A stretch of 64,000 nt of DNA. Origin: Polytrichum commune (Eukaryota; Streptophyta; Polytrichopsida; Polytrichales; Polytrichaceae). Under the pieces are notes generated by a model that saw only the letters and a program-made list of their open reading frames with translations, made no database searches and was not told where the DNA came from. Below, one piece after another: positions 20,333-55,145 of this stretch; the first letter of the stretch is position 1, and each line of letters begins with the position of its first letter. The position numbers and the translations under genes are program-made. Location: positions 50,926,758 through 50,990,757 of the forward strand of contig OX485805.1 in assembly GCA_950295325.1 (NCBI GenBank), written 5' to 3'.

Positions 20333-23300
20333 GGGGAGTGCTATCTTATGAGCGATGAGTGATAACTTGTGAGTGGAGAGGAAGGTAAAACATTTGGTAA
20401 TAGGCCCACTAGTATCCTATAAAATGTGGTATTTTGGCCTAAATAATAACAATTTTAGGGTTCATCAATGAGAAGGGTGGGGAGGATAAATAATATGAAT
20501 AATCTCAATAAATGCCAAAATAATTAATTAAAGTCAACAAACACATACTTGGTACAAGAAATAGAAAACATATCTAATATTGTAGGTAGATTCCACATCC
20601 ATTCATTCAAATATATGCAAGCACAAATTCAAACAAGATTGCTCTTAGAAGGAAATGCATATTAAATCAACTTAAGTACTTGGACATAATTATTTAAGTA
20701 CTAAATTTTAGTCAATTTTTGTGATACCCATTCAATAATATCCAATGTGTAAGGCATTCAAGTCAAAGATACAAGACAATGTGTCACACAAATCACAATC
20801 CACATTTACTGGATGTTTTATTACAACCAAATAATTGCCACACTAAATCAAAAGCATGTGCACACTCACACAAAATAAGAGAAATCATATCTAGGAACTT
20901 CTCATGTACCCAAATCCATATTCAAATCATCTTCACTACTACCATTATGTTCTTGAGCCTCTACATCAACAAATAGCAAGACACAAAAATAATAATGTAT
21001 AGATTTAATTAGTCTTTGAGGTGTAATGGCAGTTGCCATCCGTGCCGCCTCATACTTGGCATAAATAGGAAGAACAAACTTGTGATATTACTTCATTTTC
21101 TTGCACAAAACATCCAAGAAGGTTAGACACAACCAAGAAGGACGAAATATTTTACAATAACGAACAAAAGTTTTAAACCGTGTGAACCAATAAACGTACG
21201 CACCCAATCGGGATTTCCTTTGAACTTTTCGAAAAGGCTCTTTGTCATCTTCTACGACTATGTTTGAGGATTGCAAGTGGCCAATCAAAGGAGTTGGCGT
21301 TGGATCGAGCAAAGGGGCCAATATGGTATTAAACATGACAGTGTCTTTCTCAAATGCAAGAAGGTGTCGACCACTATGCCAACAAGCATGAGTTGATGCG
21401 TTTGCAACACGCATGAACATTGATAGCGTAAGCAATTGGGCATACATGATGGAATTCAACCTAAATGCAACAAATCTTAGACCAAACAATTACTTTCACA
21501 TGTAGATGCGTAAGCATCAAGGACAACACCTCCCTGCTTAGTCAACACTTTGATTAGGAATTGGAGTTTGGGTCTCTCTCACGTAGACCTCTCTATGGGA
21601 TATTTCCATGCATTAGATGCGTATTTGTTGTAGTATGATTGAAGAAGATATCCAATGATTCCACCTCGGGTGCAGAAAGACCACCCAATTTGTTGAAAAT
21701 AAATTATGGACATGGCTCATTATGGAAGAATAATATGATCCGAAATCATCATGTCTGCAAGCATCACAATTCAATTAGTATGAAGCAACAAATTTAAACA
21801 TTTCATATGACAAAAAATAACAAGTGAGTATTTTAGAGACATTACATATTGTTAGTGTTGTAATCCTATGGGAGCATAAAGGCAACTCATTAATTACCCA
21901 CCAATCCTTTGCCAATGAAAAACCATATGATGCAACTTATGTTCTCACATCATCCCTCATTTTTTGAGCTTTGGAAGAAACAAAAGTAACGGAGCATTAT
22001 CAATCAAAATACCATCTACAAACCCAAACAATGCCTCTATGTCCTTAGGGTTGTGTTCATTCCATGGGGGAAGTGAATTTGGTGGAGATGACACATTTGG
22101 AAATGGCAGAACCTTTGGCGAGTCAATGATGATCAAATCAAATCCACCAAATCTGTAAATGTCAGATGTAACTTGAGTCTTCCAAGCATGACTAACTTAT
22201 GAACAAATATTACATAAACTGTGATTTAGAGTACTATGCAACACTTCATTGAACCTTGAATAAACTCCCAAAAACATGAAGTTAATTCAATAAAAAGTTT
22301 GACATGACCACTAACCTTTTTGACAAATTCAAAAGCCAAAATCAACATGGAGTTTTATGTTGCTCTATTCTCCAACATGTTGGAGATGGAGGAATTTTTC
22401 ACAAACGTTGAACCATTAGTGAATTTGGAAGCCACCTATTGAGATTGAATTATAGAAGAAAATGGTGTAAAAACAATACCATGCTAGGATGGACTTAGAG
22501 TTAGAGCAATGTCATCAAGGTGTAAAACATTTTTCCCTTGTCATTTTGGGTTGTACTGGGGGGAGGAGGTGATGATGGTGGAAGAGTGGGATGTATACTA
22601 GATGTTGCATGTTTAGCTTGTGTAGTGTCCATTTTTTTCATGCATTTGTTACCTTTCCCAGTCAACTCAGGTTCTTCCTCTGATTTTTCCTTCACTTCTT
22701 GTGAAGGCACCACAGACGATCTGAGAGCCTCTTCTTTAGATGAATGGAAGTTTGTTGGACACTCAATAAACCACGGACAAAAAACCAATGAGTCATGAGT
22801 CCACAACATAAGCTGCAAAGTTGAGAATATGCAAAGGTCACTAGCCTTGTCAACCAAGAATATAGGGTTGATGAAAGGGCTTACAATGGAATAACTTTGC
22901 AAGTATGCAACTCTCTTGTGAGGTACCTACATGACAAGAAATATCCATGTAGTCAACCAATGTGATATTATATGAATATAATTTAAGCAAAAGTTCATGA
23001 CATGAAATACACTTGTAGATCATACGTCTCATAGTTGATTCCCCTTTGGAACAATTCAATAGAATTGTAGATTTTGTGAAAGGTGTCTTCCCCTAGAAAA
23101 ATGGAATAAAAACCTTCACCCACTGGAGACATCGCCAACGTTCCACACAATCCGTAGGTTTGAGAACATTCTTTCAATTGACCATGCCCAACTTAGGCAG
23201 AATGCCACCAAACTCTTCAATGACAACCTCCTCCAACTAGGACGTCAAATACACTATAAGAAAACATCTATAAAAACAATGAAAACAAAAAAAGATTACA

Positions 23301-24620
23301 ACATATGAATTCCAAAGGGTGAAATCATTTATATTACCCATGCCTAGAAACTTGCTTTAACTAATTAAGCCTCAAGGTCAGTGTCCCTAAAATCAGGTGG
23401 TAGAAATCATAAGGATTCACGTGACATCAGAGTGGAGTTCCACCACATTATTTTCCTTTGTATTTGCCGTTCATGGGAGTAGTTGCAAGCTTCTGCAATT
23501 TCTATAGAGACATTTTCGGTTTAGGATTGTTGCTCCAGTGTATGTTTATCTGCAAACCAACAAGCCCGTTTTTATAAACAAGGAACTCGCTATATTTAAA
23601 CTATATTTCAAAGTATGTATAAGCTTACCTCATTAAGAAAATCCACTTCATTTTCCAAATCCGCTACCGCAAGGAGTTTGTCAAATTCCTTAGACCTCCA
23701 AGCTCTCACTTTTCTTCACCACATCATTCATAGCCTTCAATTCAAGAATTGGGGATCTCTTGTCTTTGTATTTACGTGATGCTTCCTCTAAAGCTGCCAC
23801 CACATCACGCTAATGACAATCCAACATGTGAATGTAAATCAATCCTTCAAAAAAAAAAGATTCAAATCACAAACATAAAAGAGGTTGTAGCCTCACCTTA
23901 TAAACAAACCTTGCAAATACATCCAAGATAAGAAGGTACCAAGTACTCCCTAAATGTTTTTTCTCACATCTTGCATAATCACTAGGTGTTAGAAGAGTCT
24001 TAAACTCATGGAGCTTCAAAACTCCAAAACTACAAATCCGATGTATCTTATGCACCAAGTTCATTCTAACATGGTCACTCTCCGTAAAAATGTATTTCAA
24101 GCAAACAACAAATTTGAACACACATGAAGCAAAACATGCAAATATATGTAAGTTAATACCACATGAATTGAAATCTAACATGTTAATGTCATTCATTACA
24201 TCAAGGAGAACAGTAGTGGCACTAGTTGGATCCAAGCATATACAAGCAACACTGAGGTGCCAATCTATCTCATTCCCGTGATATTGGTCAATGTGGCACC
24301 ATCATGCAGTGACCCTATGGTTGCCCTCCCCAACCATAACATATTTCCTTTGAAGATTATCAAATCCTTGTCCACTGAGAATGTTTTCTCAAAAATATCA
24401 TTTACTTACTACCAAAGTGGACTCCTAGTTTTCAACATCAATCTCCAGTATTTTCCTTACAAGCAATAATGGCTCCAAACAACAAATAGGAATCAAAAAA
24501 TCACAATTTGAGAAAGGGTACATCCGTGAGTTGAAGTTTGTCTTTTCTTTGACAAATCAAAATCTCCCAAAGTGTCATGTTCAATATTCAATTCCTCCCA
24601 AGTCTCAGCCTAATCCTAAA
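20333..24620 (-). mobile_element. Remnant of a second MULE-type element carrying the ParB/methyltransferase cargo
   Basis: The left terminus GGGGAGTGCTATCTTATGAG (20333 onward) matches the right terminus of the 43510-54934 element read on the other strand. Similarity continues for about 165 bases (shared words include TATCCTATAA, ATTTTAGGGTT and GGATAAA). As in that element, a ParB/methyltransferase gene lies inside with its 3' end toward this terminus. No opposite terminus was found in 24.6-26 kb, and no transposase, so the copy is truncated. The right boundary given is only the limit of recognised cargo sequence. Confidence 0.7.
21300..24620 (-). pseudogene. Decayed ParB-like/DNA methyltransferase-like cargo gene, divergent copy
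   Basis: Pieces in the order of the 48439-54750 gene can be read on this strand. Near 24420-24180: NDIFEKTFSVDKDLIIFKGN followed by GEGNHR, then an in-frame TGA and HIDQYHGNEIDWHL, parallel to the DGNHR region. Near 24070-23900: NLVHKIHRI, LTPSDYARCEKKH. Near 23810-23650: DVVAALEEASRKYKDK and, after a frameshift, KEFDKLLAVADLENEVDFL. Near 22150-21960: FDLIIIDSPK then LPPWNEHNP, a typical methyltransferase motif IV region. Near 21600-21480: ERPKLQFLIKVLTKQGG and VVLDAYAST (motif I). Near 21390-21300: SGRHLLAFEKDTVMF. Several stops and shifts make it non-functional. Protein similarity to the other copy is modest, so the two lineages are old. Confidence 0.8.
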
Positions 24621-25790
24621 ACACCAAACAAATGGAATTAGACACAAATTACACAAGAGAGCAATTCACAACAACCACAATTTTTTTTAAACAATACCAC
24701 AAAAAACGGAAATTAACTATTGCCAACATAACTACATTCCACTTAGTATGCTAATTTTTTGTTTTTCAATCCGCAATACAAAAACCAATTCAACATAAAA
24801 TGGTACACATACACCACAAAACACTCAGAAACCAAAAAGTTATGGGGTAGGAGGCCAAAAAAAGCCAAAAAAAGGACTAGACAATGTAGATGCTAAAATA
24901 GATGTTGAAATAGAAAGTGAAAATAGTGTGCAAGTAGATATATTAAACACTTGATTATCGAGAATTTGTCTAAAACAAGATAAAAATTACTTTATTTTTT
25001 TATAAATAACTTTTTGTAATGGTGCCCTCAAGTTTATAACGAATTCAAAGAATATGAAAATAAATGTAACTTCAAAATATTTAAGGTCATGAAATCAATG
25101 TCCAAAATCAAATTTAACCATTACCTTGTGAGTAATACTTTTAATGATAACTTTTGAAGATCTCATCTTGATATTCAATGTTTGAGTACCTAACACAACA
25201 ATAGAGGGCACCATGAAAAAAATCCAATTTAAACAACACTATGCTACTACTTTTAGGCAATTGACCAAAAAAATTATGGTTTTAAGTATATTGGAGCATT
25301 TTTTTCCATTAACTTGACTGTGCTTGCTCTCATATAAAATAATTTTTATTTAATTCAAGATATGTATTTGGTATATGCATTGGAGGCATTTAATACTATA
25401 CGTCAAAATGCTTAGTACAAATACACAAGTCCTTTTTTAAGCTTATTTTTAGGACCCTCCTTTTGTACATCTATCTTTACTCCAAAAATATTAATAGTCT
25501 TTTTAAATCTACACACTAGAAAAAAATAACACCTCTCCCTTATGTATACTATATATGGTAATCCCTTAATTAATACCCCATCTTACACTCACGTTGTTTC
25601 ACACATGATACAAAAAGTCCACCTTCCCTGGATCCATTCCTAGCCAAGTGGAAAGGCTTCCATTTTTTGAAAGTAACTTCTTTGTCCTAAGCACCGGCAA
25701 GAAGCACTTTGCGAGGATTATGCAAAAGCTACAATCTTGTTTTCTTTTCATTTCTTCTCACGCTGCAACAGGGCTTGGGGAGAATCGGTG
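24621..25790. other. AT-rich region, no gene seen
   Basis: Strongly AT-rich DNA with no recognisable protein fragment. I searched it for the missing terminus and transposase of the 20333-24620 element and found neither. Confidence 0.45.
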
Positions 25791-25792
25791 AT

Positions 25793-25995
25793 GAGTTATA
25801 GATGAACCGGTTGAGTGTGAGAAATAACCAGTTGAAGTTTGAGACTTCAAGAGAATTACCGATCATTTGAGATGAATCTATAGAATATACCTCAAATGAA
25901 TAAAGCAAAACCGGAAGATGTCAACATGTAACCGGCTGGATTCAGAATCACCATGATCTTGACCAACTATGCCCAAAAATTTCCTGGGCACTGCG
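25793..25995 (+). repeat. Dispersed 205-bp repeat, copy A, 5' of the TSA pseudogene
   Basis: Contains ATGAACCGGTTGAG, GAGAATTACCGATCAT, ATGTCAACATG, AACCGGCTGGA and TATGCCCAAAAA. It is a direct, full-length match (roughly 85-90% by eye) to copy B at 30713-30915, and is related to 59880-60290. It has no coding content, and its class is unknown. Confidence 0.85.
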
Positions 25996-26650
25996 CTGCA
26001 TATATTAATTTTGTGTTTTTTTTATTGTTGTATTTAAAGGGGAACATCACAATGAAAATTAAATTGTGAAAGCCCGAACTCTACGGAAATTTTTCGTTCT
26101 GAAAATTCAACTAAGAAAAGGGATGTCTTGAGAAAACGTAAAATCTCATGTTTGTCGAAATCTACTTTTCAAAATAAAATGAAATATGATTCGTATAATC
26201 GAAACCGCCAGGAAGGACGGTAATGCCAGCCGGCTCACGCGAAGGCTAAGCGGTTGGGAGAAGATTCTTTGTTGCACATTGGGCCTCACACCGCCGCTTC
26301 TGTTTGCTTTCTCCTCCGTTGTTCGATTCATGCCTACTCATGCCCACTTGGCATCATCATCAACAACATGATGTGAGAATCTTGCACAGTTGACATCAGA
26401 AAGAGTCAAGGTTTAGACATTTCAAATTTCAGAAGCTCCCTTCGAGGCGGGGCCCTTCTCTGGCACTGTGGCTGCGGACAAGACAACGGCGGCGATATGC
26501 CTCTTGGGGACTTGATATGGTGTTTCGGTCTTTACTTGAGAAGATGTTGAGCGAGCGCAAATGTGATAACTTGAGTCGGAGTTGCATAGAATTGGAAGGG
26601 TTTGGGAAATTTCCGTTTCAGGTCGTGTGGTGCAGACACCTTGAACTCTC

Positions 26651-29600
26651 ATGGCGCTCGCAATGGCAGTTACACTTTCGAATGCTCTCCATAGCTCTCC
26701 ATGCTGGCGACTTTCAACTTCATTTGGTCGCAATATTGCGGCCGCATCCAACGTGAGACTGGTGGTGGTCCGAGCTGGAGCCTCTAAAAAGCAGTCTAGC
26801 AGGACCTGACTTGCCGACAAATGTGCAGACCACAAGAAGCAGGGGAAGGATCTTACATTCTACTTAGACTGGATATTCAGGGGTTTGTTTGTCAATCATA
26901 ATGCTCAAGCTGTCGAGAAGTGATGGGCTAATTGCATGCTGATCGATCTCCTGGGAGACCGCACTCATCCCTTACATACCTCTGGAGTCCCTGCCATGGA
27001 AACAACGGCACTGGCACTCCAGGTGCTGGATGCGTCTGGAGCAGATATCATAGAGCTTGGAGTTCCTAACTCAGACACAATCGCTGATGGCCCTGTCATC
27101 CAGGCATGTTCTTAACCAAGCTAATTCCTGAACTCTGAATCGCCTCCCCTTTACTCGCATTGATGTCGTTGCCTTTGTTGTGTGCCCTATCCTGTAGAGC
27201 CGGTCTTGGCAGATCAAGGGCTCATCATGATCATGGGATAGGATGGATTATATCTTGCAGCTTGAAAATTCTAGTTGCAAATCTGTGATTCGTATTTCTC
27301 GGTGTCATGTGGAGAAAGTCATATATAGATAAAGTCATAAGATTAAGGCTTGAACAGCTACTCCTGGTAGACATGGTCACAATGATCACAATACAAGAAT
27401 TTCAGTCTAGTTTCAAGCGGTGCAGGTCAGAGCCTGTCAAGTAAAGCATTTCTGACTGCTCATGGCAGGCGTCTGCAACAAGGTCATTGAGAAAGGGCGC
27501 TTCTATGGACAAAGTTCTGACTATGTTAAGAGAGGTGAGAATACTGCTATAAAGCTCGATTTTAGGATATCTCCTGTTTCGTAAAAGAACAAACACAGAC
27601 GATTCGTCGTTATACACTTGATTCGTTGTTGCTTGTCACTGGCCGTGGACTTGAAGGTACAACTGTGAAATTTTCAGGAGGAACTGGTGGAGATTCTTAG
27701 TTATCGTGCATAACTTGGCAGCAACTAATTTCTGCCACAATTCTTCAAATTATGTGCAAAATTGGTGTTCACATTGAGTGTGATGCTCACGTTTTGTGAT
27801 TATCGCATCCTTCACCAATATGCATTCAAAACTGGTAAACCCGTTAAATTTCAGTGTTACACTTTTGTTTCAGAAGATGATCAGGTCACAGATAGGCCCA
27901 GTACAAACATTGTGAACCTTTCTCCCTTCAAAGTTGTCGAGGGCAAATGTTCCTGTTACTTGGGTGATTCTGCTTACGTATGTTAGACATCATTATTACA
28001 TGTAGTCTTGAACAGAGTCCTCAAAAGCTGCACCCTATTCTCCAATGACTAAGCTTTCACAAAGCAGAGGACAATAACCTCATACACCGTTCTCAATTTT
28101 GCAGGTGGTGCCGAAATTGGAAGCCACCAGTGGTGCTTTTCACATATTACCACCCAATTCTTCACCATGGCTTGAAGGCTTTTGTCAAGGCCATAAAAGA
28201 TTCTGGTGGATCCGGTACTGACATTGTGCTGGAATTGATATTATAAGATTAACTACAACCATACAGAATATCCTATAAATTCAATAATTATCTCTCAATG
28301 TTTTGATTTGTTCCCAGCATCTGTTCGTACAGATAAATCTTTCAACAAACTAGTGTTTCTGTAGTGATGTTCTGTTGGACGGAAGGTTCTCCCCTCATCA
28401 CTCTAATAGCCGGACAAAGAGGGGATATACAGTTCTTGAATAGAACCCTCCTCTCCGATCACCTCAAGCTATCAATGTCCAAAATTCATACTCTTCAACG
28501 TCAACTCCCGACCACCACCATCCGGTCGCTATCGGCAGGTATTCTCGATTAATAGAGAAACTGGAAACCAAAACCCACCCCTCCGAAACACCCCATGACT
28601 ATGAAAATGAACCTCGGTATTTTGTACACTAACCATGTGAAATTAGTTGGTAGATACCGCTAATAGTCTCATTCAAGGGATAACAAATTTTCATGTGTCA
28701 CTAACTCTCAATGGTCTCTCGGGGTTGTGAACTCGGACCTTCATGGCTGTCACACCACGGTACTTGTCAACTAGCTGACCCAGCCCCGAAGTACTCGCGC
28801 CCCATGTACTTGAGTGACACCCACTGCACTGCCTTTACTACCAGCCAAGGAAAACAATTGACCTGAATATCTTACATAGAGGCCACCCGTGAAAGGGAGA
28901 AATAGCCGCGGGCAAGGAGGCTCTTTATTCATATCTCTATACATACTTACTCCTTGAAGAGATGGCGTTTTATCTATCTATTTGATGAACTACAATCATA
29001 CAAGAAAGTCAATAATTAGCTCTCAATTTACTTTTTGTTCCCAGCATCTTATACAGATAAACATTTCAACAAACCAAAATATTTTGGTAGTGATGTTCTC
29101 TTGCTCATAAGTTAATTCGTAATATTGCAGGCCTGATAGTGCCGGACTTGCCAGTTGAAGGGACAGGAGAACTCGGGTAACTGTCTATTGCCTTTGGCCT
29201 TGAGCTTGTTAGTCACTTAAAAACTTGTTGGCTACTAATTACTTTCTGGTCCTTCTTCGTGTCACATGCTGGATTTCATCACTTCTGGTTGACCACCTGC
29301 CTGTTTTCCATTGTTGAATCTACAGGCAGTCTGAATTTAACAAAAGAGCTAACTATAATGATCTCAGGTGTTCATCAAATTGTTGTTTGTCTAGATACTG
29401 ATGGCATCACCTACGACATCCAAAGATCGGATTGGAGTGATTGCAAATGCATCCAGAGGTTGTCTTATTGGTGAATATAGAATTTATTCATGAGCTGATT
29501 TTGGTTAGAGAGTTTTGTGACCAATCTTCCTCTAGCAGCTGACTTCTTTGAGGAAAATAAACCAAGTCACAAAATGCGGACATGTAGATGTTGGGTTAGA

Positions 29601-30700
29601 GATTTCTCAGCTAACAAGAGCATTTTTAAAATGTAGTTGTATCACAAAAGGACTTTCAAGTCAAGGATCTCAATTTACTAGAAATACTTTAGGGTATAGT
29701 GAGAAGTCTATATATATCCTATCTCTGACTAAATTAAATTTCAATGTGGTCAACCTTTCTGATTCCCCCCCCCCCCCCCATCCCTCATGTAAGTAGAGTA
29801 CATGATTCTAAGAGTGGAAATGGAGCATAAATTTGGGTTTGGCAATCTGCAGGTAAGCTGTACTGGCGTTACAGGGGCATACTCTTTGGTCCAAATTGGT
29901 GTGAAGGGTCTTTTGGAAGAAGTCAAGCAGGGATTTGTATAACAAACACTATCCTGAGGTTATAATTCTCTTGATACTTTGTCTCCCTTTGAGTGCTGCA
30001 CATTTTCTAGAGTAGAGAAGGTTCCTGTTTTCATTTTCTGAAGGTCCCAGGTTTTGTAAGCTAGTTCTACTTTCCTAAAGTGTTCTATTCGAGTGACCAA
30101 ATTGTGAACGTTATTAAACTGTCATTGAAAATTTTCTCATGATATGTGAATAAAGTGCTCAAGCTAATTGCAGGCGACTGACAAGCCAATAGCTGTTGGG
30201 TTGGCATTTCAACTCCAGACCAAGCTGCCCAAGTAAGATTTGCACTCCTTACTTTCCTGGAGTAGTTTTCTTAACCTACAGTCTAAGCACTGATCCCCAA
30301 ATTTTTGGAAAATTTTGGTCCTTGAGGAATTAGTTTCTGCAATCAAATGAGAGACCAAAGAGCATTTCAGGATTTAGAACAAATCTCTGAAGATTTGGAC
30401 TTCATTACTGTATTTGCCTTATTCCTTTACTCACTCACCAAGTCAATATTTACTCAGTCAGTAAGATTACTTGTAATTTGGCAATTGGTGTGAAGAAGTG
30501 TCAAAATCTAACCATCTAAGATAGGGTATGTTCTGTAGGTAATGATCGTGAAAATGTATCAAAGTACTCATGAGGTCAACGTGGTGTGGGGTGCAGATCA
30601 TCCAGTGGGGGGCAGATGAGGTGATTGTAGGCATTGCCATGGTCAAAGCTCTAGGAGAGGCTGAAACGGCCAAAGAGGGTCTGGTTCTATGTCCAGGAAG
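26651..30700 (+). pseudogene. TSA: Tryptophan synthase alpha chain (TSA/IGL-like), intron-containing pseudogene
   Basis: The enzyme family cleaves indole-3-glycerol phosphate to indole in plastids. Exon 1 (26651) gives MALAMAVTLSNALHSS, a serine/alanine-rich transit peptide, then a TGA at 26809 immediately before LADKCADHKKQGK, where Gly is expected. Next come ALIPYI with a nearby frameshift, [20 protein letters not shown] and GPVIQ (26960-27103); ASATRSLRKGASMDKVLTML (27469-27533); PVVLFTYYHPILHHGLKAF (about 28110-28215); GLIVPDLPVEGTGEL (29132); SPTTSKDRIGVIANASRG (about 29400-29470); VSCTGVTGAYSLVQIG (29853); ATDKPIAVG with a one-base loss before TPDQAAQ (30174-30235); and IIQWGADEVIVG (30597). 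Order and introns are kept, so this is a DNA-level copy or a dead locus, not a retrocopy. At least four disruptions are visible. Confidence 0.88.
28246..29102. repeat. Duplicated 120-bp segment flanking a 600-bp insertion in a TSA intron
   Basis: The segment 28246-28372 (AACTACAACCATACA, TCAATAATTA, TTTGTTCCCAGCATCT, GTAGTGATGTTCT) recurs at about 28985-29102 in the same orientation. The roughly 600 bases between carry no gene. A tandem duplication or an insertion with long flanking repeats would explain it. Confidence 0.7.
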
Positions 30701-30712
30701 AACTGGCAGTTA

Positions 30713-30915
30713 GTTACAGATGAACCGGTTGAGTTTGAGAAATACCCGGTTGAAGTTGGAGACTTAAGGAGAATTACCGATCATTTTGATGAATCTATAT
30801 AATAAACCTCAAATCAATGAAGAAAATTTGGAAAATGTCAACATGCAACCGGCTGGACTTAGAATCACTAGGATCTTGACCGACTATGCCCAAAAACTTC
30901 CCGGGCACTAGTCTG
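30713..30915 (+). repeat. Dispersed 205-bp repeat, copy B, 3' of the TSA pseudogene
   Basis: Starts TTACAGATGAACCGGTTGAG and ends CCCAAAAACTTCCCGGGCAC. It lies about a dozen bases beyond the last recognisable TSA exon, in the same orientation as copy A, so the pseudogene is bracketed by direct repeats. Confidence 0.85.
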
Positions 30916-40415: not shown

Positions 40416-41126
40416 CTAATAAAAAAACAATGTATACATGCGTTGACATAAAGCATATGGTTGTATATTACCAATGTTGGAGTTGTGCATCTTTATGAAA
40501 GATGTGCATGAGCATCTTGAGTACTTGTTGACAGTCATGTGGTAATGCTTGCCAAATGTAGCATTGTCATCATTGTAAGCAACATAGATCATGGCATATG
40601 AGGGAGGAGTCAAATCCACCTTCTCCACAATCACCATTTTGAACGAATGGGCAACTGTCATGCACTAACAATGGGCCTTAGAAGGTGGACTGTAATGAAC
40701 GACCTTCCCATCTCGAGACATTGGGGGCTTTGAACTTGGACCTCTTTGCTAGACCAAAGGGTACACTCCAAACCGAGCGACTTTAAACATACCGTCTTCC
40801 AATTTAAAGGCCTCAAACAAGGTCAAATTTGTGCTGATTTGAATAGGCCACACATCAAGAACATGAAGGTTGGGCATTACACCATACTTTGTCTTGCCAC
40901 CCGCACACTCCTTCTAGTTACCATAACAAAACCAGAAGGTTTTAGGAACGTACCTCTTCATGTTCTTGGAATTGAAGATGCCATCATAACATGGCGCAAG
41001 GGTGGAAATGCCAATTTTTCGCCTCGGACGAGCACAAACCAAGCGACTATTTGTGAGCAATCGATACGCTGACAACATGTCCCCCCCCCCCCCACACACA
41101 CACACACATGGACACATGGCGTTCAT
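40416..41126 (-). pseudogene. MULE transposase C-terminal relic with SWIM zinc finger
   Basis: On the minus strand, frames carry pieces in the order of the 44417-48025 transposase: RRKIGISTLAPCYDG, WFCYGN, VWPIQISTNL, then YHMTVNKYSRCSC, TSFIKMHNSNIGN and LCQRMYTLF. These parallel RKHGIPAPTYKG, WFCPDD, TWPVKIGTNL, YHVIIGDIPHCTC and CKHLYYVF there. The SWIM Cys-X-Cys is kept, while the later Cys-X-His is Cys-Gln-Arg. Stops interrupt it. It is a diverged fossil of the same transposase family, 3 kb from the larger element. Confidence 0.7.
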
Positions 41127-43130: not shown

Positions 43131-43509
43131 AGTAGCACCACTTGAAGGGTTAACTTAATAATGCTCTTCATTTGGTAGACCACGTTTCGGATAATTTATT
43201 TTGGTTCCATGTGTCAAAGGTCCACTATGGCACTCCCTATCCATTCCCTCTTGATCCAATCTTCATTCAATCTTGGGCTAGATTGGTATTTGCATGCATC
43301 ACCTTTCACGGCACTTGTTCCCTATGGTGTGAGAGTTTGATAGACCAGGTTGAATCTTATGAGTTTGTTGGTACTTGCAAGGTTTGGTCTTACATGAGCA
43401 AAACACATAGGTAGATATGTCTAATGCGGTTGCTTCTCGTAATCGGACACCTATATTTGAGTGGTAAGTAGTTTGGTGGGACTTCAAGAACATATATTAG
43501 AAAGGCATG

Positions 43510-43595
43510 GAGGGAAGCTATCTTATGAGCGATGAGCAGTGAGCGGTGAGCGGTGAGCAGTAACACATGAGCAATGAGCAGTAACATATGAGCAA
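43510..43595 (+). repeat. Left terminal inverted repeat and subterminal repeats
   Basis: GCTATCTTATGAGCGATGAG is followed by short direct repeats of GAGCRRTGAGC type and (T)ATGAGCAATGA. They are candidate transposase binding sites. The counterpart is at 54860-54934. Confidence 0.85.
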
Positions 43596-43730
43596 TGATT
43601 CCAAATTTAGTAAAGACACACGGGTTTAGGGTACACAACCAAAATTTTGACAAATTAATTGCATATTTTTAATTGTAAATTGCCAATATTTTAAATGAAG
43701 CACAAGTGAAAGGGCCCTATTTCCATGGAT

Positions 43731-43955
43731 CATTTAAAACACTTTCAATTCATTGCTGATTTTTATTATAATAATCCAAACCAATACATGTCATTTATTG
43801 ACATCCTTATACATGTAGTTACAACCAACACTTGCACAACTACTCACATTCCACAACACCATCAAGCTCAAGTAGGTGCATAACCTCATTATACGTACAT
43901 GTAGGTGCCATAATTGTGAGCCACTCAAACTGCTCACGGGTTGAATTAAGGCCCA
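43731..43955 (-). repeat. Extra copy of the transposase 3' end inside the MULE
   Basis: Sequence from ATCATTTAAAACACTTTCAA onward, through ATTATAATAATCCAAACCAA, parallels 44307-44500. On the minus strand it encodes TYNEVMHLLELDGVVECE and a stop, versus TYNEVMRLLELAGIVECE in the main gene. It is either a tandem duplication or the end of another, related MULE. The SINE-like copy at 44023 lies between the two. Confidence 0.8.
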
Positions 43956-44022
43956 AAATCTACAAATGAAAGGAAATTAGATATTAGAAATAGTCAATAT
44001 GTAGGTAACTACTAGGTTTTGA

Positions 44023-44213
44023 GACATCCGCCTGTGGATGCGAGTTGTGTAAGAGATTGGTATTAGGTCTGTATCAACCCGGGTTCGAATCCGGTTGGTT
44101 ACATTGACTGGTGCTATCCCAAATTGAGCTAGTGATAAAGCAGGAATAATCTATAGGCGGATACCAAGAAGACGTTACTACGCGGATGTGCGTAGAATCT
44201 TCTCAATTATTTT
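44023..44213 (+). mobile_element. tRNA-derived SINE-like element, copy 1
   Basis: It contains GGGTTCGAATCCGG, an exact match to the tRNA/SINE B box (GGTTCGANNCC), about 70 bases after GACATCCGCCTGTGGATGCG. The shared body ATTGACTGGTGCTATCCC is found again in reverse orientation at 48796-48977. It is not a tRNA, because no acceptor-stem pairing was seen. Confidence 0.7.
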
Positions 44214-44416
44214 TTATTTTTAGAAACATTGTTATTATTTATCCATGTCAATCAATCAAACCGCTCACGGTTGGGTCGTAGTCTAAATAGAAATGAAGTT
44301 ACTGAATCATTTGAAATACTTTCAGTCCACTGCTAATTTTTATTATAATAATCCAAACCAAAACATGTCATATTTTGACATTCAAATATATGGTACTTAA
44401 TAGACCATTTGCAATA

Positions 44417-47400
44417 CTACTCACACTCTACAATACCAGCAAGTTCAAGTAGTCGCATGACCTCGTTATAGGTATATGTAGGTGCATGAATGAACTTGTC
44501 ACTCTCGTAATCCACCTTGCACAAAAATCTAAACACATAATAAAGATGTTTACAATACACCCATTTTCCTTTCTTTCCCGATGCATGAAAGGACATTTTC
44601 GTGAAATCCGGGCATGTGCAATGCGGGATGTCGCCAATTATGACATGGTAGGTGATATCATGCTTGGAGACAATGTTGATTATCATTCCAAAGCCCGGAT
44701 ATGGAATGGCAGTGACCCCAACCACATAGTAACCCTCCATGAGTCTGGCGCTCTCCCATTTGTTTTTGTGATCCGCTAGCGGTGTTGTTGGATTACGACG
44801 CACTGTCTTCCCAAACCTGAATGTAGGGTGGGCGTCCAGGTTTGGTGGCATAGAAAAATGCAAGCGAGGGATGGGGAGAGTTGCGATTGTTGAAAGCCTA
44901 CGACGAGGGGACAATGCCTCCCTCTGCTATAGTTGAAATCCAACATCTTCAAGTGCCAAAACCTCCTCTCGCGATAGATTGGTACCTATCTTCACCGGCC
45001 ACGTGTTGGGTACTATAGGCCAGTCCAATACATATTTCTTCTTACTGCCACTCACAGAACGTTTGATGTCGTCAGGGCAAAACCAAAATTCATACTCCAC
45101 ATTGTTGGGAGAGCGAAATTCCTTCCTGAGCCCTTTGTATGTTGGAGCAGGTATGCCATGTTTCCTAGTCCCGACTTTGGCATTGCACATAGTCCCTGTG
45201 ATGGCCTGCAGTGCCCAACATCGTTTGGCTGAGTTGGGTGGTAATCTTGCAATGTGCCACTTGGAAGCAAGATAATCTGTCTCTAACACGGATGTAGTAT
45301 GAGCCACACCATAAATTGCAGAACTCAACGATTCCTCTATGCGTTGACAAATTGCTCGGATGTTGGGACGAAGAATGGAATAGTTCACTTTGTCGGGTCG
45401 ATGAGAATCACAATCAGCACCCGGTGGTAGGTTGAATTTGCGTTTGGTGGAACCAAAGAGCTATGACCCTTCCAATGCACAATCTCTAGTGTTGACGTCT
45501 TCTGTCCCTCGATAAGACTTCATGGCATCGGCCAACATTTTTGGATCTCCACACCTGGCAGCCGCTTTGAGTTTCAAGGAGGCCGAATCAGGACCTTTAC
45601 CATCAGACCCCCCTTTCAACCATGTCCAGTAATTTGCAATTTGCATGAAGGCACGGATCATGTCGTCCATTGTAGCTTCATATAAACAAGTCATCTTGTT
45701 GCCGGACTGTTGGAGCCATTTGTTGTGTACAGTCTCTGCAAGGTTGCATGTTGGCATTTCCGCACGCTCTTCTATTGTCATATCCTATGAACAACACATA
45801 TATACAAGGATAGGAAAAACATAAGATATATTATATATCAGTGGCAAGATATTGAATGACAGTGAATAATGAAGTTTGATATGTACTTACAAGTAGCATA
45901 TGACCATTCCATTGTCTATAACGAAAGTGCCAAAATCCCAACCACTCTGAAAGGCCAAGGATGCCTTCTTCCGAGGCAGCTCCAGATGACAACCACCAAG
46001 AACGAATCACATGGTACTTAGTCTCAGCGTCGTCCATTGTTTTCGCGTCTTTGTAATCCTTGCATATTTGTTTGTATTGAAACTGCAAGGATGGTTTGAT
46101 ATACTTTTGGGTCATCTTATCCAAGCTTGCAGACCAATGGAAAAGACATGTACGCTCACGTGCAACCATGAGTAGACTTTGATCACCATCCCCGTAAATC
46201 GCCCTCACCGCATTCCAATTAGCTTGAGCACTATCAACCATGAACCCTTTGAAGTTTACGTTTGGTACACCATTTTCTGCCATGACAACATTCAAATTTT
46301 CCCAAAAGAGAATTTGTGTTGCACCATCTTCAGATTGCATGTCACAACACGCAAAAGTCAACACTTTACAGTATCGACTGTCGTACAGATGGCAAGCCAT
46401 GGTCGTCCAGTCCTTCAAACGTTTGATATGGTCAAACATAAACTATGAATTCTCCATGTCCCCACCGACTTGCATCCTCTTCACAAGTTCCACACCACTA
46501 CTTGGAAGGTCTACAGACATCTTGAAAACAAACACTTTGTCCTTTGACTGCCCTAGAAAGCGACTACCATGGACGAACTTGAAAGCAGAGTGGTCTTTGA
46601 GCGCCATAATACTATCCATAGTTCCCATTTTACTACGCAAAAAACGCTTTGATCCAAATACAAAGTTACGACAAGTCGGAGACGCAAGAGTGCTGAATTT
46701 GTCCATGACGACCTCTAGGGATGAACCAACCAAGTGATGGCCTTCGACATTTGCGGGAGATTTGAGAAGGTAATCGGCCAAGATTGTTTGCTTGCTGCCA
46801 TAATTATGGCTGAATTTTTGGCTGTGGGTGTTTTCAATACTTCATTTGCAACGCACTGGTATGCCATGTCCAATGACTCACATCATGTGCCATTGGCCAC
46901 AGGGTGATCATATACACCAATATAAATGCAAGTCTTGGACATTCCAACAGATGTGGAGTGAATGTATATGATTCGAGCATGACATAAAGCAATGCACACA
47001 GGTGTGGAACGACATACCTTACACTCGATAGTGGACCTAGTGGGAGGAACATTACCCACAGCAAATGGGAGACGAGTTGAACCGGCCCATTCGGTGTTGT
47101 TCCGGAGGCCCCCATTGTGATTCATGTAATCACAGTAGTCATTAGAACATTGGAGATGACCAGCACAAGTAGAACGCCGGAAGGACAATCCAAAATCATT
47201 TTGGATATTGATGGTTTTGGTGGTGCACCAAGGGTGACCATCGCACATTTTGTCCATGCCGTCCATTGAGCGGCCATACGTATTTGGAACTTTAAGTGTC
47301 ACAGGGGGTAAGAGAAACAAAACATCACCATTAAAAGAAGATGGTAAGTACTTGACATTACGAACATCTATACTATCAAAATCAATGGATGCAAGATCTG

Positions 47401-48025
47401 ACTTTGATCTTTTTCTTGACTTTGTGAGCTTCAAGGCATCAACTATAGTGAACCCTGTAGATGAAGGTGAAGGGTGTAGTGGAGGACGTTGAGAGGGTGA
47501 GATTAGGGGAACCACCCTCTTGTACATATGACCGCAAGGAGATTTGGATACATGTATAAGAAGTTGCAAAGGAGTAGAATGAACACCTTTAAATGGAAAC
47601 GGCGATGTGTTTGAAAGATCAATAGATGCACAACTGTCATCTTCTGAATCCGATAGCACAAACACACTATCATCAAGGGGTTCTACCTTAACATGTGCGG
47701 TAGAAGGAATTTGAACTGTGGATGTACCGGATTCGTTTGTCAATATGACAGTAGAAGCTTGCATCTGAGACTCAGAAAGACCTATCACCCTATATGAACC
47801 AAGTCCTAAGATCCACATAAAACCAACCTTTGTTCTGTTTTTTTGAACCAAAATCGTTTCATACACCTCTCCATCTGTAGAGTACATCTCCTGCTCTAAA
47901 TACATGGAGCCTATCTGGAGGTTGAATCTCAAACTAAGTAAATCCTCTGAAACACTCACATGACTATCATCTTGAAGTGGCAAAATGAAGGGAACAAAAG
48001 ATCCATGAGCTCTAATGGTAGCCAT
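44417..48025 (-). pseudogene. MULE transposase with GCM/WRKY-like N-terminal fingers and C-terminal SWIM finger
   Basis: It starts at the ATG at 48025 (MATIRAHGSFVPF). Around residues 265-310 Cys/His clusters CDGHPWC and CAGHLQCSNDYCDY suggest a DNA-binding finger. After a TGA at about 46883 and a frameshift near 46785, the catalytic part reads VLTFACCDMQSED, GFMVDSAQANWNAV and CLFHW (the conserved D and C-X2-H of MULE DDE transposases), with an intron of about 110 bases (roughly 45786-45893). It continues CNLAETVHNKWLQQ, then WFCPDD, WPVKIGTNL, and the SWIM finger HCTCPDF followed by YCKHLYYVF. It ends VECE at 44417. Further in-frame stops (TAG near 46441, 45461 and 44927) and the shift make it defective. 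It would cut and insert the element and is transcribed divergently from the cargo gene. Confidence 0.82.
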
Positions 48026-48438
48026 GGAAAATGGAAAGATGAATTAAACAAGACATCACAAAAATTTGGGTGAATGTTGTTTTTATATAGAGGTGTGTGA
48101 TGAAGTGAATGAAATTGAAAACGCGTGATACAATAATGGATGGTGATGAAAGCGTGTAATATCATAGCATCTAATAATATGGAAGTAAACATATCACAAT
48201 AATAGTTAGAGAATATTTACAAGCAAGATACACACAAAACAGTGAGGCTAGGGTGTCATAAACTTTTGGATTCTATAATAAAAATAGAAACAAAATGAAA
48301 GACGCGTTGAAATATTTCGTTCATTGGACGTCAATTGCAACATGAATGATCGTAATATACACCGGATTTATTTGGGATAGACACATTGGAAGAATAAATG
48401 ATAGTGGACTGATGGAGGACACATTATAGACACCAACG
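48026..48438. promoter_or_regulatory. Shared divergent promoter region of transposase and cargo gene
   Basis: About 410 bases separate the transposase start (minus strand, 48025) from the first ATG of the cargo gene (plus strand, 48439). The sequence is AT-rich and has no other frame of note. Its role is inferred from the back-to-back arrangement. No specific motif was identified with confidence. Confidence 0.5.
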
Positions 48439-48795
48439 ATGGTGGAGAATGTAGAGAGAACACCCGTGAGGCCGAAGAGAAGGCGTAGGAAAGCTTTGTA
48501 TTTTACTTCTGAGAAAAATAGGTTCGGACTGAGTGTAGGAAAGAGGAATGCAAACAAGGAAGGGAAAAGAAACATGTTGAATACGATAGTAGAAACTGTG
48601 AAAGCACTGGATTTTGATATGATGGAGGGTGATGAAGGTGCACATGCAGACGATCGTATATCGGAGTCGGAAATGAAGACGAGTTCAAAGAAGACAACAA
48701 ACAAAAAGGTAAGTCAGCTCAACGTAAATCAACGATATTGTTGGGCATATGTTTTAGTTTGTTCAAAGTAGTCAATTTAACAAAAACTTTATTTA

Positions 48796-48977
48796 GAAGG
48801 ATCTATGCACACTTGCGTAGGAAAGCCTTCTATGTATCCAACCTACTTAATTTCCTGCCTAACCACTAGCTCATTAGGGGATAGCACCAGTCAATGCAAC
48901 CAACTAGATTCGAACCCAAGTTGGAGTAGACCGAAACATCAATCTCTTTAGACAACTCGCATCCATAGGTGGATGTC
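48796..48977 (-). mobile_element. tRNA-derived SINE-like element, copy 2
   Basis: On the minus strand it reads GACATCCACCTATGGATGCG, then TTGGGTTCGAATC (B box), then CATTGACTGGTGCTATCCC, matching the copy at 44023-44213 at roughly 75-80% by eye. It lies inside the large first intron of the cargo gene. The two copies face each other across the transposase gene. Confidence 0.7.
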
Positions 48978-49107
48978 TATACCATTTTTTCTTACACTTT
49001 TATACATTTGCCGATGGTATGACAGTAGTAAATCCTTGGAATATCGGCGGCCCACCCGAAAAACATTTCTGACAACGAATTAGAAAGCTTAAAAGATAGG
49101 AGGGAAA

Positions 49108-50314
49108 ACCCTGTGCGTTAACGCACAGGGTTGTTTAGGGTATCTAAGTCGCTCCCTAATACCCTCTGCGTTAACGCACGGGGTTGTTTACGCTGTGTAA
49201 GTTGCTCCCTAATACCCTATGCGTTAACGCACAGGGTGGTTTAGGGTTTGTGAGTCGCAACCTAATACCCTGTGCGTTAACGCACAAGGTTTTCCCTCAT
49301 AACTTTTAGGGTATCTAAGTCGCTCCCTAATACCCTGTGCGTTTACGCACATGATTGTTTAGGGTTACTAAATCGCTCTCCAATACCCTCTGCGTTAACG
49401 CACGGGGTTGTTTACGCTGTGTAAATCGCTCCCTAATACCCTGTGCGTTAACGCACAAGGTACTAGGGAGCGACTTAGATACCTTAAAAGTTAGGAGGAA
49501 AAACCCTGTGCGTTAACGCACAGGGTATGTACGAGCGACATAGAAAGTTAAAATTTAGGATGGAATACCCTGTGCGTTAATGCACAGGGTATTAGGGAGC
49601 GACTTAGATACCCTAAAAGTTACGAGGGAAAACCATGTGCGTTAACGCACAGGGTATTAGGGAGCGACATAGAAGGTAAAAAGTTAGGAGGGAAAACCGG
49701 TATGTACTTGCGACTTAGAATGTCTAAAAGTAAAAGAAATAGCTATTGTATAAATTGAAAACGTCATGTAAAGTGTTGAAACTAAACATTTGTTCAAAAT
49801 GGGGTTAGAATGTAAAAGATGAGTAATATCCCTACTGAGATATTCATGTAGTATGTGACAGGAGCTAAAAAATGACCAAAAACAATGAAAAAAAATTTTG
49901 TGCCCAGAAATCCAAAATCTACGAGGTGGCCAAAAACAATGAAATAGATAGAAGAATGAGTAAAGAAAACGATATCAAACACAAAAAAAATATTAGAGAA
50001 AGTTGTAGCCACGGAGATTTAGATAATTTACAATATTTTTTTTATTTTTTTTGGACACGATTAGTATTATTTATAGATTTTACAAGTTTTGGCAAATCTA
50101 CCAATTCCATACTAATAAAATAAAATAAAATAAAAAACTTTTTCAAACCTTTGGCATAGACCCTGTGCGTTAACGCACAGGGTCCACGCTAGCAACTTTC
50201 ATACATTTGTAGTCAGGTGCATAGACCCTGTGCGCCAACGCATAGGGTCTACGCCCGCAACTTTGGTAGGCCTCAAAGCTAGGCGCGTAGACCCTGTGCG
50301 TTAACGCACAGGGT
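49108..50314. repeat. Array of 13 copies of a 24-bp palindrome centred on GTTAAC
   Basis: The unit is ACCCTGTGCGTT followed by its exact reverse complement. Starts are 49108, 49161, 49214, 49267, 49332, 49385, 49438, 49503, 49567, 49632, 50160, 50225 and 50291. Spacing is 53 bp or 64-66 bp. Four copies are perfect palindromes and the rest carry one to four changes. The GTTAAC core is kept in ten or more. In the first seven units the linker reads as GGGTATCTAAGTCGCTCCCT. From 49461 onward it is inverted (AGGGAGCGACTTAGATACC), so the array has two opposed arms. A 500-base unrelated stretch (49661-50158) splits off the last three. The array lies in the first intron of the cargo gene. Confidence 0.95.
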
Positions 50315-50409
50315 CTACCCTAGTTGTTTAGGGTAAGCCGCTACCTTAATCACACAGTACTTAAACTACCAAAGTCACACCTTAAATTTTTTTTTTGTCA
50401 TTCTTCCTC

Positions 50410-50830
50410 TTGTTGGTGGTTCTTTGTTGTTGTGGTGGCTGCTGCTATTGCTGCTCTTCTTCTCTTGTTTTTGCTCATGTATTGCCACTACTTCTAGTGT
50501 TGTTCCTATTGGTTTAGGTGGTATTAGTTCAGATACTAATCTATTGTTCTTATTGTTGTTGTTTGTGCTGCTGCTGCTATTGGTGGTGTTGTTGTTGCTG
50601 TTGTTGCTGTTGGTGTTGGTGTTGCTGCTGGTGGTGTTTGTGTTGGTGTTGCTGATGTTGGTGTTGTTGCTGCTGCTGTTGGTGTTCCTGCTGTTGCTGG
50701 TGCTATTGGTGTTGTTGATCCTGTTCCTATTGTTGGAGCTGGTGTTGCTGTTTGTTTGGCTGGACGTGGTGCTATCCTGTTTTGTGCTCTTCTTCTACTG
50801 TTGGTGTTGGTATTGTTGTGGTTAGAGGTA
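50410..50830 (+). repeat. GTT/GCT-rich low-complexity tract
   Basis: Degenerate TGTTGT/TGCTGC/TGGTGT triplet repeats fill this stretch. Frames across it are almost pure Leu/Val or Cys/Trp and are not credible proteins. It lies between the palindrome array and the second exon of the cargo gene. Confidence 0.85.
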
Positions 50831-53800
50831 CTGTTTTTTCTCTACACCTTTAAGCATGTTCTCTTATGTAATCAAATACCTTTAGAAGATACTACATCAA
50901 GAATATTTCTAAGATTTATGTCATTGTTTGTATTTAGGACCAAACAATGGATGTGGAAAAATCAGTTTCTCTTTCCACGGATGATGATTCCACAAAAACC
51001 TCAACTCAAGATCGTCCATCCAAACAAGTTTATCATGATCAAGACATCTCATCAAACCTTCACAATAAGAATAAGAGAAAGAAAAAATTTACAAGAACCC
51101 CTCAATGATTTTGATTCCGATGAAGACAACGATGGTGATAATAAAACCTATCAACAGAAAGTATGGGAGCTTACGGACAAGCGAAAAGTTAATTCCACTT
51201 CAACAATTTTCTCAATCCGTGCTGGACCGAAATCTCGTTTGCGTGTACCCTTATGTCGCATGGTTCCGATGCCTATTGTGCGTCCTGCTTTGAAAGGCGA
51301 CATCACTAAATTGGAGGCTGATTTTTTCAATGGTTATCGTGATGGTGACCGTGTGTTTTATCTATCAGCTACCCACTCTAAGGGAAATTTTCAATTTGTG
51401 GATGACGAGGTTCGTGCATCTTGAAGCCCAAATTGGGCTCAAGCTAATGCGGTGTTTGAAACTGAATTAGATGCCGATCCTTCATTTACATCATACAAGA
51501 ACAAGATATTCTTCATATGGGATGGTAATCACAGATTTTTTGCTTGGAAAAGTTATATTGACCGCTTGCATACCGAAGATTACGAGCGTCATGTCTTTGT
51601 GAATTCCATCATTTTGGCGCCCGAGCTTGATGACATTCCAAGTTTGTTGACTGCTATGTACGACATCAACAAGTAATGCTCTTACTTCTTTATTTTCATT
51701 TATTTCTGGTTTGAATTTTGTTATTTGAATTATATTATCCTAAATCCATAAATTCAATATTTTTTCAGGTCAACAGAAAACTCTCACGTTTCTACCAATT
51801 TGGTGCATACTTTGTATCGGATGCAAAGTATTGGCACCATGCCTTTGACTTCTTTTAAAAAACAACTGGATCCTAGAAGTTATAAGCGATGTGAGGAGAA
51901 GTCCGTCGAAACTTGGTATTCTTTTACGCGGCCAATTTTTCTTGATTACATGTACACTGTAAGTTTTTCTAGCATTTCCTACTATGTTTTTAATATTTAT
52001 TTATCTTTCATTTACATCACATCTATATGTACTTATTAATTTTGGATTTTGTTTAATTTTTCAGCAAGAACTTGCCGAGGCTAGCGATATTGCTCTCAAC
52101 CTTTACAATGAAACCCATCCTCTTGAACGAACTTCAGAAGGAGTTTCTAAAGCAATGTCCGCAACTGTCAACAAAAAACGTGTAATGTTGTCTTCTAGTT
52201 TTACAAAACAACTAGCGATTGCTGACAACAACCTCACCCGTGCTTTTCTTGAAGAAGTTAAGCATCATTGGGGTTCATTTTCGGTGCCTGAAATGTTACA
52301 AGAGAAACTTCATCGTATTGCTGTTAGTAATGTGGATCCAGATGTCAAAGTCGGATGGCTCAAGCTTTGGAATGGCAATAGATTTGACAAAGATGCATTG
52401 CATTTCCCGAAATTACACCTCTCTGATTCTGCACTTGATGATTGGTTATCAAAGTCTACATATTGGGCACAGTTAGAGAAAACAACTATTGAAGAATTCA
52501 AAGTATTATTTCATCTCCTCTTCAATTGCCTGCAGATGTGCCTACTCTCTCCGAATATATCCAAACCTGGAAATTTGCGGCTTTCAATTCAATATTCTAT
52601 CGTGAATTCAAAAGCGGAAAAGTAAAAAAACACAACGTTTGGGATGAGCAACCGAATATTGATCTTGCTATGAAGCGTGTTCTATACAGGTACAACTTAC
52701 TTTTTACTATTTTTTGATATTTTTTCATTATATTTTACTTTTCATTTAATATTTGGCTCATAATATTTTTGTGTGTAGGTATTTCCGATATATTTTGATT
52801 CCGCACAAATGCGTTATAGGGGAACCTCGTTTTTTTCCAAATTGGCGTGACACTGGTGCGGAAGACTCATGCATGTTCACTACAGAGATTTGTTTGGATT
52901 GGTCGCTCCCACACTATGAGGATTGTGGTTGGTATCTTGATTGTCCTAAAGATGCATGTCCGTCAAGTGAGAAGACAATCCGTCAGATAAATGATGCCAA
53001 AAATGTAGATCCTCGTGATACTACAATTTTGCAAGCACAAATTGTGCAGCTTAAACTTAGAGAGCCAGAAGCAAAAGAGACAAAACGTCGTAAGAGAAAA
53101 CATGTTCCTGAAATTAAAATACAAGGTGAATCGGAAATTTCACAACATGAAGAATTGCTTGTTTTTTCCAATGATTTGGATAAGAATACACTTGGAGGCG
53201 AAAGTTCAAAATCCGGGTGCGATGTATTGGAATTTCATTACTCGAGCACCTATGACGCTATTCATCGTGCGCCAACGAATGTTTTGAGAAAATAGTTATT
53301 CATACTGAAGAACTTTCTCACGCTCTCTTTTGCTCGATCTACTGCTGTCAAGAACAAGTCTGAAGGGGTTGAAGTAGGCCCTCCTGAGTGGATACAATGG
53401 CGGGCATTTCTTGAAAATATAAGTAATCTTCATTTTGTATTTTCTGTAATGTTCTTACTGTCATTTGGATTTTATTTTGTGTCTTATATTGTGATATGTT
53501 GTGGTATTTCAGTTCAAAGACAATCGCAAATTTCATATCATGGGAAGTCCGACTCCATTTGCCGTTGACTTGGTTTTTCTGCAATTTCCGGACGGTCTTG
53601 ACTTCAACCTCTCCAATAGACCTGCTGAAATTCCTCTTTGGAATAAATATGACAATAACTGGATGGTTGCAACAATATCCTTGTGCAAGTCCATCTTGTC
53701 TGATGATGACGTCCTCATAGTATTTTCTGCTATCGATATGCAAACGAAGAAGGTTTTGAATTCAACCTTACACAACGGCAACATGAAAGTTTTTAGGACT

Positions 53801-54764
53801 TTTATTTGCCTCAATTCGTACATGGTGTTCAAGGATCCGGAGTCTCCAACGTACACCGTAAGTATAACACATCACAATTGTTTCTATTTAATTATTTTGG
53901 TGTTATTTGCATTGTATATAGTTTTAACACAATTTATATTTTTTTGTAGACTCCGGCATTTATAACTCATGTCTTGGTAAGGGATTTTACTACCACAAAA
54001 TCCACGAGACAATCAAACTCCACTTTTTTTGGCACTGGATTGAAAAGCAAAAACTTGCTTTTCAATTTTGTGGATGAAAAAAACATGCTTCTTCAAAAAT
54101 TGGGAAGATCTTGGAGGGGGCCATATAAAAAATCGCCGCATTTTTTTCAAGATCTTATTGAATTTTTTACACCATCGAATGGACGCGTTGTTGATTTGAC
54201 ATGTTCCACTGGAACTTCTATCCTAGCAACATGCGCATGTGGCAGACATCTTCTTGCATTTGAGGGTGATAATGACATGTTTGAGCACATATTGAAACCA
54301 CTTTTGGAAAAGGTTTTGAAAGAGGGGTCATCTAAGGAGAATATACAAGATCTCACAAAAGAAGATGATGACCTCTCGGATGAGGAGATGCTTGAATTTG
54401 AGTGTGAGTAAGTTTTGATACAATAAATTTTTATTCAATTCATTGGTTCATTTTTATTTCTTCACATTATTTACATGTTTCATCGATTTGATTTCAGGAA
54501 TACGATTGGAAAGAGGACATGTCTCCCGTTTTGGACACATAGACAATTCCTACGAAGTCCAAGCCGTAGCCCGCGTCTCCCATCATATGCGGAGAATGTT
54601 GCAATTGCAATGTTGAATATCGAAGATTCGGATCCAAATGAAGAATCTTGCTATAGTTCCAAAATCAATTCGCAATGCAAAGGTGCTCGAATATATATAG
54701 ATGATGAGGCAAAAGATAGTTTCATGTCTAGTGCTACTAGTGATGAATAAATATTTGGACTTCA

Positions 54765-54934
54765 TGTTGTTTATCCTTCTCAACCCTCTTATTACTAAAA
54801 CCCTAAAATCATCATTTTTAAGGCCACAATTCCACGGTTATAGGATATTGGTGGCCCTATTACCAAAATTTTCATCTTCCTCACTGCTCATAAGTTACCG
54901 CTCATCGCTCACCGCTCATAAGATAGCACTCCCC
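54765..54934 (-). repeat. Right terminal inverted repeat and conserved subterminal region
   Basis: On the minus strand it begins GGGGAGTGCTATCTTATGAG, then GAGC repeats, TTTTGGTAATAGGGCCACC and GATTTTAGGGTT. The outer 37 bases pair with the left end at 43510. The full 170 bases match the terminus at 20333-20500 next to the second cargo copy. Confidence 0.88.
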
Positions 54935-55145
54935 GAAAGGCATGTGTTCAAAAAGGCCGACTCCATGTTCAAATATTGATAATCATTCTGAACTCATTAG
55001 CCAACATAATTGGGGGGCATTTATGACCATTTAATGAACACAAGAATCTTCACTTTGATCAGGAATAAGATATTTATATGAGCTCTAGAAACTATGAAGA
55101 AATTGGCAACAACCTCAACTTGGATTACTAACCATCTCATACTAA

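Follow-up and report, generated by a model that had tools for sequence, protein, structure and literature searches.

A decayed two-gene Mutator-like element in Polytrichum commune with a methyltransferase-related cargo gene and an internal palindrome array

MuDR of maize is a Mutator-like element (MULE) with two genes, mudrA and mudrB. In the VANDAL elements of Arabidopsis, which are also MULEs, a transposase is accompanied by accessory genes (VANA, VANB and VANC) and short motifs form arrays in the noncoding parts; as outlined in PMC10398659, VANC proteins bind these tandem motifs of their own element, leading to loss of silent marks. Kaonashi or KIU MULEs carry an enzyme-derived accessory gene with an Ulp1 domain, according to PMC13317346. 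DNA methyltransferase (DNMT) genes have been found in transposons of other kinds: C5-type genes in retrotransposons of Symbiodinium and Klebsormidium, with CG methylation shown for the enzymes, and DNMT genes in DNA transposons of marine viruses, as cited by the same source (PMC5890265). Prokaryote-type amino-methyltransferases are described from eukaryotes in PMC8885841, namely N4CMT of bdelloid rotifers and an N4-methylcytosine (4mC) methyltransferase of Marchantia. Here we describe a MULE of the moss Polytrichum commune that shares features with each of these systems. It lies in a 64,000-nt window, the whole stretch of DNA that was analysed (assembly GCA_950295325.1, OX485805.1:50,926,758–50,990,757, forward strand), and all coordinates below are window positions. 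The likeness to MuDR is one of two-gene layout.

Borders and transposase of the element

The element spans 43510–54934 (11.4 kb) and is a single transposition unit with inverted ends and a flanking exact 10-bp target site duplication, GAAAGGCATG, which abuts the left end at 43500–43509 and the right end at 54935–54944. Within the window this 10-mer has just two plus-strand occurrences, both at the element borders, and none on the minus strand. As a chance control, an exact 10-mer was present within ±3 bases of both anchors in 28 of 200,000 random pairs of window positions. The initial annotation had proposed one transposition unit here and had allowed that the GAAAGGCATG pair might belong to a longer, unrelated duplication; because the left and right flanks outside the 10-mers are unrelated in sequence, it does not, and the proposal stands. 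The left terminal inverted repeat with its subterminal repeats (43510–43598, plus strand) and the right terminal inverted repeat (54883–54934, minus strand) are composed of units containing TGAGC, and their arms (43517–43561 and 54883–54927) show 82% complementarity across 45 nt. MULE target site duplications range from 8 to 11 bp and MULE terminal inverted repeats commonly reach hundreds of base pairs, as summarized in PMC6446971; the duplication found here lies within that range, whereas the inverted repeats are shorter than is common. The end core GCTATCTTATGAGCG has three exact occurrences in the window, at both element ends and at 20340, where it marks a second, inverted and decayed element.

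The transposase gene lies on the minus strand. Exon 1 (45891–48025) encodes a WRKY/GCM-like zinc domain and an RNase H-like core with D codons at 46431–46433 and 46233–46235. A GT–AG intron (45785–45890), delimited by comparison with contig L001, separates it from exon 2 (44417–45784), which contains a probable catalytic E codon (45734–45736) and a SWIM-type CxC...CxH pattern. The gene thus displays the DDE triad, the CH motif (as CxxH) and the W between the second D and E that PMC5225508 gives as features of MULE transposases, with the E placed by spacing only. Structural comparison yields moderate matches to an IS256-type transposase and, at moderate Z, to GCM and WRKY domains; together with the SWIM-type pattern, the latter provide the zinc-finger DNA-binding domain of a MULE transposase, although the Pfam SWIM match itself (0.18) is below cut-off. 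None of 30 transposase relatives scores above the cut-off of a curated MULE/Mutator Pfam model, a failure of a model cut-off rather than of an anatomical feature. PF00872 appears below threshold in two of the 30 (best 0.034) and in L001 exon 1 (0.043). This anatomy identifies the product of the minus-strand gene as a divergent MULE transposase. A transposase of the same family occupies two open exons of L001 (positions 2–3548), a 4.1-kb contig filed as a metagenome-assembled genome of a Synechococcales cyanobacterium and probably representing plant DNA in a bacterial bin.

Both genes of the element, the transposase and the plus-strand cargo gene described below, are broken by stops and frameshifts, so this copy cannot itself be active. 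The transposase has a frame break between 46841 and 46883 and an in-frame TAG (46443–46445) in exon 1, and in-frame stops at 44927–44929 and 45461–45463 in exon 2. The locus at 43510–54934 is therefore a defunct two-gene MULE, and we regard the two-gene anatomy as very likely correct. Target duplication, inverted ends and transposase anatomy all bear out the MULE identity given in the initial annotation, from which the damage to both genes, the location of the palindromes in a predicted cargo intron and the second cargo-bearing right end (20333–24355) were absent.

The left side of the element also contains a partial duplication of the transposase 3′ end (43726–43908 and 44303–44485; 84 and 83%, offset 577). 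An insertion at 44005–44215 (plus strand) carries a B-box-like GGTTCGAATCC, from which we take it to resemble a short interspersed nuclear element (SINE), and a relative lies on the opposite strand at 48783–48996; the two SINE-like insertions in opposite orientation are a sign of the element's age. ARAGORN found no tRNA in the window. The observed/expected CpG ratio is 0.72 inside the element and 0.42 in the remaining window, and the higher ratio could reflect younger age or less methylation.

The cargo gene, the palindrome array and a second copy

The cargo gene occupies seven plus-strand exons between 50938 and 54750, with GT–AG borders and five of six junctions in phase. The first of these (50938–51672) encodes a ParB-like DGNHR motif and has a frame break near 51100 and a TGA at 51422–51424. 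It is followed by exons at 51769–51958, 52065–52689 (frame break near 52511) and 52779–53422 (frame breaks between 53280 and 53329; 3′ border uncertain). The exon at 53513–53857 contains the position of methyltransferase motif IV, where LQFP replaces D/N/S-P-P-Y/F/W, and the exon at 53950–54407 contains motif I (VVDLTCSTGTS); the last exon is 54498–54750. Upstream, an exon 1 of 90 codons (48439–48708) is predicted from a GT donor and a phase that fits the next exon, with no homology support, and would be followed by an intron at 48709–50937. The full-length relative of the cargo is Ceratodon purpureus M758_1G295400 (P0001; 1147 residues), the only one at E ≤ 1 among 6434 candidates, with 30% identity over 82% query coverage (E = 1.2e-111). 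This places the cargo in a family of plant proteins.

The predicted first intron contains the palindrome array. At two mismatches or fewer, TGCGTTAACGCA has 13 matches in the window and all 13 are inside the element, as against a mean of 1.32 and a maximum of 5 in 100 shuffles, which bears out the array reported earlier. The dyad consensus, ACCCTGTGCGTTAACGCACAGGGT, is 24 bp long and perfectly symmetric over this length in 4 of the 13 copies. Block A (49108–49655) comprises ten copies at a spacing of 53 or 64–65 bp, and block B (50160–50314) comprises three at 65–66 bp. The two blocks differ in their flanks but both retain the dyad, which suggests that the dyad itself was the relevant unit.

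The second element (20333–24355, minus strand) consists of a right end at 20333–20499 adjoined by minus-strand cargo relics that run from 24355 down to 21244 in the same order as the cargo of the first element. Its right end, inverted, is 76.6% identical to 54761–54934 over 175 columns, and the cargo is 51–72% identical at the nucleotide level, a value lower than that of the ends, across six segments picked by protein similarity. In these segments codon positions 1, 2 and 3 have 133, 107 and 160 mismatches and 164, 186 and 129 matches, respectively (p = 2.9e-5). This pattern and the divergence indicate that the copies are diverged members of one family whose cargo evolved under coding constraint. 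In each of the two window copies the end is accompanied by the cargo.

These observations bear on a possible origin of the cargo by capture from the host, through transduplication as in Pack-MULEs and without a role for the element. MULEs often carry pieces of host genes, as noted in PMC6446971 and PMC13317346, and the Ceratodon relative is an annotated gene. However, the cargo comprises several exons and is comparable in length to the Ceratodon protein, in both of the diverged window elements it stands beside a homologous end, and it was constrained as coding sequence, so that we consider capture without a role unlikely. The best reading is that the cargo serves the element as an accessory gene and is not a random host fragment.

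Other remnants lie nearby. A GTGCTCCAAG repeat at 20323 and 40361 might have been the target duplication flanking the second element, but we discarded this possibility, as no inverted repeat was found at 40361 and the transposase relic there is oppositely oriented. This relic (40425–41012, minus strand; read from 41012 to 40425) is a related transposase C-terminus including the SWIM region, 25% identical to relative P0004 over 221 columns. It is oriented like the first element and unlike the second, and is the remnant of a third element. A pseudogene at 25790–30910, which we read as tryptophan synthase alpha-like, is flanked by a pair of direct repeats, each about 200 bp long and spotted by eye (near 25795–25990 and 30712–30910), and an open frame at 18743–19243 on the minus strand resembles a hAT transposase C-terminus in its reading.

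Methyltransferase descent of the cargo protein

The N6_N4 amino-methyltransferase profile (PF01555, beta class) matches above cut-off in the Ceratodon protein (4.9e-7) and in relatives P0032, P0041 and P0042, and slightly below it in P0051; the window-type proteins P0033, P0034 and P0035 and the window exons themselves have no match to it. The methyltransferase part, used as a query, retrieved 31 proteins at E ≤ 1 out of 3366 candidates, and all but one of these reached 2.4e-7 or better. Most of them span roughly a single exon. The clusters P0033 and P0034 comprise 46 and 53 members, in each case from a single listed contig. In the cargo, motif IV precedes motif I, the order that we take to assign it to the beta class of amino-methyltransferases. 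The ancestor of the cargo was an amino-methyltransferase of prokaryotic type, to which a possibly ParB-like part is joined.

In pairwise alignments, 15 of the 31 relatives cover motif IV. Q occupies the D/N/S position in 14 of these and N in one; the tetrad D/N/S-P-P-Y/F/W is present in none of the 15. Motif I is covered in 14 relatives, all of which keep the D and eight the STG, with DPF in none. DNA methylation by the window subfamily is therefore doubtful: judged by its motifs, the subfamily probably keeps the family likeness but not the chemistry. Other branches, such as those with DTPF (Ceratodon) or DSPK (the second window copy) at motif IV, may still methylate, given that DTP or DSP is kept. 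The earlier description of the cargo as DNA-modification-like thus holds for its ancestry and is doubtful for its activity.

These counts also speak against a further reading, in which the protein is a functional N4-cytosine or N6-adenine methyltransferase and marks its own element, for instance at the palindromes. Such an enzyme would fit the profile matches, the beta-class motif order and the residues retained in Ceratodon and in the second copy. The palindromes are centred on GTTAAC, a sequence also recognised by the beta-class enzyme M.HpaI, and 10 of the 16 GTTAAC sites in the window fall in the array. Marchantia, moreover, has a 4mC methyltransferase of bacterial origin, as presented in PMC8885841. 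Among the Ceratodon-type relatives only P0001 covers motif IV, and this type may include active members. On balance we think self-methylation improbable for this protein.

A possible VANC-like role for the accessory protein

The second gene and the palindrome array suggest a self-marking or anti-silencing device. The reading that we favour, tentatively and at a little short of an even chance, is that the element encodes a VANC-like accessory protein of methyltransferase descent together with its own palindrome array. The divergent genes, the accessory protein and the internal array of short motifs resemble the arrangement in VANDAL elements, from which we infer the same logic for a protein of other descent. 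The accessory protein would act as a dimer that binds the 13 24-bp palindromes within the predicted first intron of its own gene, and in the manner of VANC the bound protein would counter host silencing or regulate a divergent promoter between transposase and cargo. By this analogy, self-binding with an anti-silencing outcome is conceivable, though we lean slightly against it. A fuller history, in which a moss MULE lineage acquired a ParB-methyltransferase of phage or bacterial type and converted it into an anti-silencing factor with sequence specificity, catalysis was lost in the window subfamily and the former methyltransferase now reads its own array as a convergent counterpart of VANC, is possible but rather doubtful.

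The N-terminal part of the cargo raises the question of another role, in transposition itself. DGNHR, present in the first window copy and in the Ceratodon protein and replaced by EGNHR in the second copy, is presumably a motif of ParB/sulfiredoxin-type domains. ParB loads at parS, and the 13 dyad-symmetric sites might similarly serve for loading of a protein that acts in end pairing or target choice. However, the palindromes are internal rather than at the element ends, no helix-turn-helix domain was identified in the accessory protein, and neither Pfam nor PHROGs gives a ParB-family match to the cargo segment at E ≤ 10. We consider this role very unlikely. The label given to the cargo in the initial annotation survives in its methyltransferase-like half, through PF01555 in the relatives, and is reduced to the DGNHR motif in its ParB-like half.

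Several further observations, besides the missing ParB match, weigh against the VANC-like reading. Only two copies in the window connect the end with the cargo, and for the second neither a left end nor a transposase was found in the window. No palindrome at two mismatches or fewer occurs in the second element and no direct-repeat array in 24300–26000, so the array may not be a regular companion of the cargo. Cargo exon 1, and hence the intronic location of the array, is a prediction, and the exon border 53422/53513 is out of phase, which makes the 3′ border at 53422 uncertain. The structure model of the Ceratodon protein has a mean pLDDT (predicted local distance difference test) of 40.9, too poor to judge. 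On the transposase side, weak Pfam matches to two unrelated families (0.011 and 0.017, one member each) outrank PF00872, the top Foldseek row is an unrelated protein, and L001 carries the transposase without the cargo within its 4.1 kb, which is a short contig.

Set beside the described systems, the P. commune element shares with VANDAL a tandem short-motif array in a noncoding region, here 13 palindromes in a predicted intron. It differs in having inverted ends, Vandals being called non-TIR (terminal inverted repeat) MULEs in PMC13317346, and in an accessory protein of methyltransferase descent for which binding and anti-silencing are proposed by analogy. The architecture had at first been called unfamiliar for a MULE; accessory genes and short-motif arrays bound by the element's own protein are, however, already described for VANDAL and VANC (PMC10398659). 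A MULE with a methyltransferase-type gene is not described among the matches listed from the open-licence literature, as far as titles and abstract openings indicate. The enzyme-derived gene of Kaonashi and KIU encodes an Ulp1 domain, whereas that of the present element is related to methyltransferases. The DNMT transposons likewise combine a transposon with a DNA-methyltransferase-type gene, but theirs is of the C5 type (PMC5890265) and the gene described here is of the amino-methyltransferase type, lies in a MULE and has motif IV replaced. The rotifer N4CMT has an SPPY motif, unlike the window cargo, and neither it nor the Marchantia enzyme is presented as transposon cargo in the sections of PMC8885841 consulted.

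VANC in Arabidopsis is a described case of anti-silencing by a transposon's own motif-binding protein, as recounted in PMC10398659. If our reading is correct, a second, unrelated protein paired with a MULE motif array would suggest that such systems have originated repeatedly, and the 24-bp dyad and its protein would offer a compact pair for direct tests. Prokaryote-type amino-methyltransferases would then have entered plant genomes as transposon cargo, which would bear on the origin of bryophyte 4mC enzymes.

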